Shown here piece after piece: positions 22,243 to 23,869 of a DNA stretch of 64,000 nt; position 1 is the first letter of the stretch; each line of letters opens with the position of its first letter. The notes below the pieces were generated by a model. It made no database searches, was not told where the DNA came from, and saw only the letters and a list, made by a program, of their open reading frames with translations. Made by a program: the position numbers and the translations under genes. Where the stretch lies: contig NZ_JARHUD010000007.1 in the NCBI RefSeq assembly GCF_029222965.1, positions 62,001 through 126,000 of the forward strand, read 5' to 3'. This stretch comes from Aquibaculum arenosum. Its GTDB lineage: Bacteria; Pseudomonadota; Alphaproteobacteria; Kiloniellales; DSM-21159.

Positions 22243-22318
22243 GCCCAGGTAGCTCAGTTGGTAGAGCATGCGACTGAAAATCGCAGTGTCGGTGGTTCGA
22301 TTCCGCCCCTGGGCACCA
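22243..22318 (+). tRNA. tRNA-Phe (anticodon GAA)
   Basis: A complete 76-base cloverleaf with encoded CCA. Acceptor stem GCCCAGG (22243-22249) pairs with CCTGGGC (22308-22314); D stem GCTC/GAGC; anticodon stem TGCGA/TCGCA enclosing CTGAAAA, so the anticodon is GAA; T stem GGTGG/CCGCC with the TTCGATT loop. No mismatches in the stems. It lies between the protease gene and the metQ leader. Confidence 0.97.
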
Positions 22319-22753
22319 TTCTTTTCCGGTCCATTCCGTCGTCCTTTGCTGCGCTCTTGATGATGCGGGGGCGTGTCGTCGGGGTGCTCGTTGCCTCGTC
22401 ACCACCTGTATCGCCCGTGTTGGGGAGGAGGGGGACGGCGCCGCTATTCCCCTGACGCTACTTCCCTGATCTCGCCGCAGATGCTCCAGGGCAGCGCAGG
22501 CTGGCAGCCTGCGGCCTCGGGCGCCGCTGCCTGTTGGCACTGCCGGTGCAGCCGGCCGGGGCCTCCACGAATGCAGGCATCCTTGCCTGCATAGGACCAG
22601 CTACCGCAGGTGCGGGCGGCTGCCTGCGCAACGGCGCCCGCCACCTCCGCGCGCTCAGCCTTCCTCGCGGACCTTCAGCTTTCCGACTCTTGACAGCGAT
22701 CTAAACTCTGGCAAAGCTGCGCCTGCCTTCACGGCTGGGTGGCTCCATGATCG
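22319..22753. other. Gene-free region between tRNA-Phe and the metQ leader
   Basis: No credible coding region. A perfect 9-bp hairpin (22571-22579 with 22584-22592, TCCT loop) has no T-run. A consensus -35 box TTGACA stands at 22690-22695, but the sequence 17 bases further is a poor -10. It could still be the promoter of the metQ leader RNA, which begins about 60 bases later. Confidence 0.5.
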
Positions 22754-22806
22754 GCTCGCGGGATTTGAGGGCAGCTTGCACCGCGTGATCAAATGCTAAA
22801 GCGCCA
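22754..22806 (+). promoter_or_regulatory. SAM-II-type riboswitch aptamer (S-adenosylmethionine)
   Basis: The segment matches the compact SAM-II (metA) aptamer known from alphaproteobacteria. P1 is CGCGG (22757-22761) with CCGCG (22781-22785). The enclosed 19-base loop contains GATTTGAG and GCTTGCA, and the 3' strand reads TGATCAAATGCTAAAGCGCC (22786-22805), carrying the conserved GTGAT...AATG...GCTAAA core. A GGC in the loop (22770-22772) could pair with GCC (22803-22805) to form the pseudoknot. SAM-II RNAs normally shut off methionine synthesis genes by hiding the ribosome-binding site; here the first sizeable gene downstream is metQ, 240 bases away. Confidence 0.8.
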
Positions 22807-22850
22807 CGACGTGGTTCGTGGTCTCGCCCGGTGACTGGCTGAGGGGAGAC
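22804..22850 (+). promoter_or_regulatory. Expression-platform hairpins after the SAM-II aptamer
   Basis: CCACGA (22804-22809) pairs perfectly with TCGTGG (22816-22821) and shares bases with the 3' edge of the aptamer, so the two compete. Immediately after, GTCTC-G-CCC (22821-22829) pairs with GGGGAGAC (22843-22850) with one bulge. The 3' arm of this second hairpin contains the Shine-Dalgarno of the short upstream ORF. The layout suggests that SAM binding changes access to that ribosome-binding site. Structure inferred by eye. Confidence 0.5.
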
Positions 22851-22856
22851 GCCGCC

Positions 22857-22877
22857 ATGCGATACCATCACTTCTAG
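22857..22877 (+). CDS. Candidate leader ORF MRYHHF in the metQ leader
   Basis: A six-codon frame (MRYHHF then TAG), seven bases after a strong GAGGGGAGA ribosome-binding site. It lies between the SAM-II aptamer and metQ. The spacing is ideal and the purine-rich site is partly buried in the preceding hairpin. No function is known to me for this peptide; it could act as a leader peptide whose translation changes folding downstream, or be fortuitous. Confidence 0.45.
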   Translation: MRYHHF

Positions 22878-22930
22878 AATAGCTGCATCGCGCTGCGCTG
22901 CCACCTGCCTGGCGGCGACGCTCATGCCTT

Positions 22931-22952
22931 GGCCGTCCGGCCCCGGACGGCC
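22931..22952 (+). promoter_or_regulatory. Strong GC hairpin in the metQ leader
   Basis: GGCCGTCCGG (22931-22940) and CCGGACGGCC (22943-22952) are perfect complements, allowing a very stable stem-loop. No T-run follows, so it is not a simple terminator; it could be a Rho barrier, a stability element or part of the switch. A second possible stem, GAAGGC (23006-23011) with GCCTTC (23025-23030), ends directly at the metQ ribosome-binding site and competes with GGGG/CCCC (23003-23006 with 23013-23016). Confidence 0.45.
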
Positions 22953-23047
22953 GCTACAGCGACCTCAACAGACTGCTTCTCAAGAACGATAGGTACGCGT
23001 CTGGGGAAGGCTCCCCTGGCGCCTGCCTTCAAGAGGATTACTGCACG

Positions 23048-23869
23048 ATGGCTTTCTTTTCTGTTTCCGTATCGCTGACGCGTCTGCTTTCCGGCGCTTC
23101 CTTCGTGGCGGCCGGCTTCGCCACGGCGCTCGTCTTTTCTTCCCCCGCCGCGGCCGAAAGCCTGCGGGTGGGCGTCTCTGCCGGGCCCTATGGGCAGGTG
23201 CTCGATGAGGCGGCCCGCCTGGCTGCCGAGCAAGGCCTCGACGTGGAGATCATCGAGTTCACAGAGTGGACCATGATCAACGAGGCACTGCACAACGGCG
23301 ACATCGATGCCAACAACTTCCAGCACAAGCCCTACCTCGACAATCAGATCGCAGCCCGCGGCTACGAAATCGTGCCGCTCGACTCCTCGATCGTGGTGCC
23401 GATGGCGCTCTACTCGGAAAGTGCGGACACCATCGAGGAGCTGCCGGAAGGCGCGTCCATCGGCATCCCCAATGACCCGACCAACGCGGCACGGGCGCTC
23501 TTCCTCCTCGGCGAGGCCGGTCTGCTCACCCTGGCCGAGGGGGCAGGGGCGACGGCAACGATCCTCGATGTAGCGGAGAATCCCAGGGACCTGCGCTTCG
23601 TGGAACTGGATGCGGCGCAGCTGCCGCGCTCGCTTTCGGACCTCGATGCCTCGGTGATCACCTTGAACTACGCTGTGGTCTCGGGGCTCGATCCGCACGA
23701 TTCGCTGATCATCGAAAGTGAGGAGTCCGACTGGACCCTCGTCTGGGCTGTGCGGGAGGATCGGGCGGAGGACCCCACCATCCGCCGCTTCATCGACATC
23801 TACAGTTCCGAGGAAGTTCGGGAGTTCATCGACGTTACCTTCGAGGGGACGATCCTGCCGACCTGGTAA
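23048..23869 (+). CDS. metQ: MetQ/NlpA-family ABC transporter substrate-binding protein
   Basis: A 273-residue periplasmic binding protein of the NlpA family, whose best-known members bind methionine for the MetNI importer. The start of the mature part, ESLRVGVSAGPYGQVLDEAA, the segment WTMINEALHNGDIDANNFQHKPYLDNQ and PNDPTNAARALFLLGEAGL are all strongly typical of MetQ. The signal peptide ends SSPAAAES and contains no lipobox Cys, so this version is predicted soluble rather than a lipoprotein. No metN or metI is adjacent, so it must use a permease encoded elsewhere. The SAM-II element upstream supports a methionine-related substrate. AAGAGGA is the ribosome-binding site. Confidence 0.85.
   Translation: MAFFSVSVSLTRLLSGASFVAAGFATALVFSSPAAAESLRVGVSAGPYGQVLDEAARLAAEQGLDVEIIEFTEWTMINEALHNGDIDANNFQHKPYLDNQIAARGYEIVPLDSSIVVPMALYSESADTIEELPEGASIGIPNDPTNAARALFLLGEAGLLTLAEGAGATATILDVAENPRDLRFVELDAAQLPRSLSDLDASVITLNYAVVSGLDPHDSLIIESEESDWTLVWAVREDRAEDPTIRRFIDIYSSEEVREFIDVTFEGTILPTW

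Follow-up and report, generated by a model that had tools for sequence, protein, structure and literature searches.

Organization of the metQ leader

The window, the whole 64,000-nucleotide stretch of Aquibaculum arenosum DNA that was analyzed, contains a metQ-like methionine-uptake gene for an NlpA lipoprotein, and the DNA upstream of it carries a riboswitch aptamer followed by a short open reading frame (ORF). The features of this locus are listed below by their positions in the window.

22748-22829, + strand: SAM-II-type aptamer, inserted-stem variant (Rfam matches, class model R1, sister aptamers)
22757-22761, + strand: P1 5' strand, partner 22781-22785 (CGCGG/CCGCG in alignment A2)
22769-22772, + strand: L1 strand GGGC, predicted to form pseudoknot P2b with 22826-22829 (covariation)
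22795-22803, + strand: GCTAAAGCG, near-invariant 3' strand of the aptamer core (invariant columns, 44-48 loci)
22804-22821, + strand: hairpin P3, between GCTAAAGCG and the P2b 3' strand (-7.2 kcal/mol)
22826-22829, + strand: P2b 3' strand (GCCC), which doubles as the inner 5' arm of the hairpin over the SD
22821-22850, + strand: hairpin over the leader SD, mutually exclusive with P2b (GTCTC...GAGAC, -15.5 kcal/mol alone)
22841-22849, + strand: leader Shine-Dalgarno sequence (SD) GAGGGGAGA; GAGGGAGA in the congener G001
22857-22877, + strand: putative leader ORF ATG CGA TAC CAT CAC TTC TAG (MRYHHF), TAG at 22875-22877
23003-23016, + strand: hairpin GGGGAAGGCTCCCC, 31 bases upstream of metQ and identical in G001
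23032-23037, + strand: metQ's own weak SD, AGAGGA
23048-23869, + strand: metQ-like NlpA lipoprotein gene, presumed target (PF03180, E 1e-76)

The two hairpins, the SD and the ATG...TAG frame described by the initial annotation all lie where it placed them, and the hairpin at 22821-22850 does cover a strong leader SD. The leader ORF starts 49 nt past the GCCAC of the aptamer, a position like that of other first ORFs of the class. Its stop at 22877 is separated from the metQ start at 23048 by 170 nt, a distance too great for plain translational coupling, and metQ has an SD of its own. Matches to the hairpin GGGGAAGGCTCCCC are expected by chance 0.05 times in the window. Neither an intrinsic terminator nor a sigma-70 promoter match was found in the focal leader. 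The spacer between leader and metQ also holds a perfect 10-bp palindrome (GGCCGTCCGG/CCGGACGGCC, 22931-22952) that is not kept in G001, and a tRNA gene (Rfam, 71 bits) lies upstream of the leader at 22243-22315.

The region from 22740 to 22880 was no more stable than shuffles (z 0.66), and when the platform was dinucleotide-shuffled, an SD (4-base) with an ATG appeared at the leader position in 8.7% of cases. The focal locus alone is therefore weak evidence, and the weight of the case comes from sequence comparison.

Aptamer, inserted stem and expression platform

Two Rfam families matched the aptamer below their gathering scores: SAM_alpha (RF00521) with 20.9 bits at 22748-22819 (gathering score 36) and SAM-II with 19.7 bits (gathering score 44). 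Two relatives of the focal aptamer type passed the gathering threshold with 41.0 and 36.8 bits. SAM-V had no Rfam match at E<=5 within 22400-23060, and no Rfam family covered the leader or attenuator part. The class model R1 scored the focal aptamer at 75.2 bits, R1 being derived from alignment A2, which includes the focal copy. The SAM-II core UUUGA / GCUUGC / GCUAAAG is present with P1 (RF00521 alignment; invariant columns in alignments A1 and A2) and is nearly invariant across 48 order loci and 88 class loci. SAM is the presumed ligand. Two sister aptamers occur in the same genome, one before the metN operon and the other before a metZ-like gene (L003). The L003 locus (contig C26) contains tandem SAM-II-type aptamers at 1371-1449 and 1505-1558, of which the first leads into a hairpin with a T run that resembles a terminator and the second is of the inserted-stem type and precedes the metZ start; the same tandem spacing was seen in many class loci (L064, L069, L074, L076, L078, and L095).

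After GCTAAAGCG, most loci have a hairpin of variable sequence (CCACGA-CGTGGT-TCGTGG at the focal locus) and then, at once, a strand complementary to L1. The paired strands include CGGAA/TTCCG, GGGAGC/GTTCCC, CGTC/GACG, TGGAGC/GCTCCG, GGATC/GATCC, and CAGG/CCTG. Complementarity between L1 and the strand after the hairpin gave a z of 6.6 over permuted pairs, with 0 of 500 permutations as high, and still gave a z of 5.1 when the common GGGC type was left out. Because L1 covaries with the strand 3' of the hairpin at 22804-22821, that hairpin is assigned as an aptamer stem, P3, predicted to be inserted inside the aptamer pseudoknot throughout the class; the Rfam SAM-II consensus, unlike the focal aptamer, lacks this stem. 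The initial annotation had instead read it as a switching hairpin at the aptamer edge. The related idea that it competes with the aptamer was dropped, as L1 does not covary with GCGCC. The focal P2b has 4 bp.

The expression platform overlaps the leader SD, in that the P2b strand and the SD hairpin share 22826-22829. The calculated stability of the SD hairpin changed from -15.5 to -4.3 kcal/mol if the aptamer holds GCCC and G22821, and the openness of the SD rose from 0.24 to 0.60 with GCCC alone held. Taken literally, the energy model indicates that SAM would expose the leader SD. Physiology predicts the opposite sense, with metQ lowered by SAM. Across the class, the best complementarity of the SD was with P3, in its loop and 3' strand (z -7.6); sequestration of the SD by the P2b strand was unsupported as a class rule (z 0.2). 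The focal SD departs from this trend, its best partner being the P2b strand, and the class therefore does not yield a single switching direction.

Conservation of the leader and cysteine codons across the class

G001 was the only congener among the genomes compared, and the comparison of the focal leader thus rests on two orthologs. Identity to G001 was 96% over the aptamer core, 83% over P3, 90% from P2b to the SD and 76% over the ORF, and dropped to 41% over the 73 bases past the leader stop. Changes in the SD hairpin fall mainly in the loop, with an additional one-base deletion at the SD. The G001 leader ORF encodes MRHHFF, and its SD, start, stop and six-codon length are kept. The alignment of MRYHHF with MRHHFF can be explained by five substitutions or by two 3-base indels and, since both fit, is not by itself proof of coding. 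Retention of the SD, ATG, stop and length next to a diverged region past the stop suggests a remaining constraint. The metQ ortholog of G001 was 87% identical; no ortholog of comparable identity was found elsewhere among the order genomes searched, and the homolog in G025 was 45% identical. Among 145 relatives, the exact leader pattern was detected in the own genome only, and a contig scan gave as sole match a metagenome-assembled genome of the congener (JAJUFM01, Rhodospirillaceae bacterium bin11). The same layout precedes metN in both species, with the predicted leaders MHRCPPSP (own genome) and MYRPPCLSP (G001), and nucleotide conservation between the two metN leaders stops at the ATG. An in-frame Cys tail past the focal stop was considered and rejected, as its two Cys codons in G000 are absent in G001.

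A covariance model built from the aptamers of the order, with the focal copy among the seeds, matched 86 of 385 class genomes. An SD with an ATG was found 30-65 bases past the aptamer at 88 of the 135 testable sites among the 136 collected, vs. 9.2 expected from shuffles. At 42 of the 136 sites the first ORF, with over 60 codons, was counted as the gene; at 55 it was short, and two of these (L011b, at a contig end, and L113) are probably misassigned; the script left the remaining sites unclassified. Directly controlled first ORFs, recognized by family or start sequence, include cysG, cysH, metZ and a gene for an OsmC-like protein. In representatives, the products of the downstream genes include MetN, CysH and an enzyme of the Cys/Met PLP type, binding proteins for sulfate and of the sulfonate type, an OsmC-like protein, a peroxiredoxin, a porin, and a family-less small protein of about 75 residues. 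The small protein (about 70-100 residues, ..IEVAG..AGLALRERGGFSFFAADPRFRLLD..) is the first gene product after most Cys leaders (L107-L112, L119, L121, L123, L133, and L135); two representatives had no match in NCBIfam and one had none in Pfam. Carriers in the DNA search include Azospirillum brasilense, Tistrella mobilis and Niveispirillum cyanobacteriorum. The predicted A. brasilense leader (L214) is MTMMSLPFSANRTGTVTGQCCQMRNACCRR; nothing is annotated at the site in the record of strain Sp 7, whose gene table in PLSDB is nearly empty. By these comparisons, a predicted SAM-II switch ahead of a leader ORF is a real and widespread arrangement across Alphaproteobacteria. The layout is easily missed because annotation skips such short leader ORFs and because most of the aptamers score below the Rfam cut-off.

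Cysteine accounted for 108 of 1436 codons (7.5%) in the class leaders vs. 11 of 2478 (0.44%) at the starts of directly controlled genes, and mononucleotide shuffles of the leaders gave 3.0% with a maximum of 4.4%. At least one Cys codon was present in 44 of the 55 leaders, and 80 of the 108 Cys codons were within seven codons of the stop. The other forward frames contained 5.0% and 1.9% Cys; the excess over the first of these is modest because that frame, too, reads part of the TGT/TGC runs as Cys. A later check in two further orders gave 55 new unique leaders, which come from related genomes and hence are not independent events. Cys codons made up 153 of 1513 in this set (10.1%; shuffle maximum, 4.8%; other frames, 7.3% and 0.8%) and 25% of the last seven codons, with at least one in 53 of the 55 leaders and at least two in 51.

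The 28-codon Azospirillum-type leaders (L184, L195, L201-L207 and relatives) have a conserved hairpin, GGCCTGTGTTGCCGC..GCGGC..ACACAGCGCC, whose 5' arm holds the Cys codons and which is a candidate attenuator stem. It shows a compensatory change in L207 (GCCGC/GCGGC to GCTGC/GCAGC). Counts by codon position in two leader families gave no third-position excess, which fits leaders in which the Cys codons rather than the peptide matter and gives no independent support for coding. Overall, the short leader would usually act as an attenuator with Cys codons in front of sulfur genes. The focal leader, like that of G001, is atypical for the class in having no Cys codon, and its coupling to metQ is putative. 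An alternative hairpin over the leader codons, looked for by comparing the focal locus with G001, had no conserved counterpart there. The initial annotation had pointed to the His-His codons, and these do occur in both species but have no counterpart elsewhere; the class-wide signature is Cys codons. A His-specific attenuator was considered and not upheld, as nothing ties metQ to histidine and no other locus shows the His-His pair.

Interpretation and relation to known systems

We favor, with a probability of about 0.5, a reading in which a variant platform of the SAM-II family governs the six-codon leader and translation of the leader adjusts metQ, the locus being a cut-down member of the Alphaproteobacterial layout. 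The metQ transcript would begin with the SAM-II-family aptamer in its inserted-P3 form, and SAM binding would set the partner of GCCC at 22826-22829, either L1 or the leader SD. The platform would thereby control ribosome entry at the leader ORF and not at metQ, and translation of the leader would in turn tune metQ output. We infer both the translation of the leader ORF and its effect on metQ.

The SAM-II switch of Sinorhizobium meliloti metA, in which the SD is needed and translation starts 74 nt downstream (PMC9373788), resembles the focal locus in its SAM-II aptamer, in an SD that is part of the switch and in a gene start far downstream of that SD. It differs in having AUG1 and AUG2 in one frame, separated by a terminator. 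By analogy with metA, for which exactly this has been proposed, the leader SD could serve metQ as a site of ribosome loading or standby under riboswitch control, with the six-codon ORF incidental. The poor conservation of the metN leader peptides next to their retained SD and ATG, and the lack of Cys in the focal ORF, are in keeping with such a site. We nevertheless consider it unlikely, since metQ is 190 nt away with a stop in between, the focal pair keeps start, stop and length, and the Cys-enriched, structured leaders of the class argue that leader translation matters there.

A rather improbable alternative is that the focal leader is the vestige of a Cys attenuator, which inherited the layout, lost the codons and was left with SAM control, perhaps acting on mRNA stability. 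Such a loss would agree with the metN leaders, which retain one Cys each in the focal genus and have several in another family (MRALFLLPDFPSLPGATRRMRRCRCRT), and with the Cys codons past the focal stop in G000, which G001 lacks; the SD, ATG, stop and length kept in both species, vs. 41% identity past the stop, speak against a mere remnant. That the ORF is a chance reading frame within a conserved riboswitch platform is very improbable, as it is conserved in the congener, it sits where the first ORF of the class does and the layout is repeated at metN in both species, even though SD and ATG arise in 8.7% of platform shuffles and the stretch shows no excess of structure over shuffles.

The favored reading of the metQ leader can be extended to the class: we give even odds that the SAM-II switch gates ribosomes into a Cys-codon leader that senses Cys-tRNA, the focal metQ leader being a derived, sensor-less form.

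The initial annotation was right that a riboswitch directly precedes the leader ORF, and the aptamer is of the SAM-II kind; the order is kept in G001 and recurs in many genera. Its statement that no system with this order had been described is superseded by the B12 riboswitch of Mycobacterium tuberculosis, which controls a short translated upstream ORF, uPPE2, and then ppe2 (PMC11260477). Both systems run from riboswitch to short leader ORF to gene. The ligand at ppe2 is B12, and there the upstream ORF and the gene overlap at AUGA and are linked by termination-reinitiation, whereas the focal stop lies well before metQ and does not overlap its start. A ppe2-like overlap of leader and gene was found in some class members, e.g., L046.

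According to the available part of a report on tandem SAM-II/SAM-V riboswitches, these provide two-level SAM control in Alphaproteobacteria (PMC11508383). The tandem arrangement at metZ in the own genome is similar; the second unit here is a SAM-II variant, in many loci followed by a leader ORF. Leader peptides with Cys codons have been described for cys operons of Actinobacteria (PMC1262725) and for the cysS motif uORFC-8-2 of Rhodobacterales (PMC8632094). As far as the available portions of these two papers go, the leaders are like those of the class in that Cys codons occur in runs close to the stop of a small ORF preceding sulfur or cysteine genes, and no riboswitch is mentioned upstream; the focal leader differs in having no Cys. 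The combination of a SAM-II switch with a leader peptide and Cys codons was not found in the literature searched, in which subscription journals are sparsely covered.

Riboswitches and leader-peptide attenuators are usually seen as separate solutions. The recurrent layout of SAM-II switch and leader ORF suggests that two sulfur signals are read in series, and, if it is indeed recurrent, RNA leaders would combine cofactor and aminoacyl-tRNA signals in series. Since the layout occurs in culturable Azospirillum and Niveispirillum, it is directly testable. Such a serial two-signal gate would probably govern genes of sulfur uptake and assimilation across Alphaproteobacteria, with SAM read first and then cysteine.
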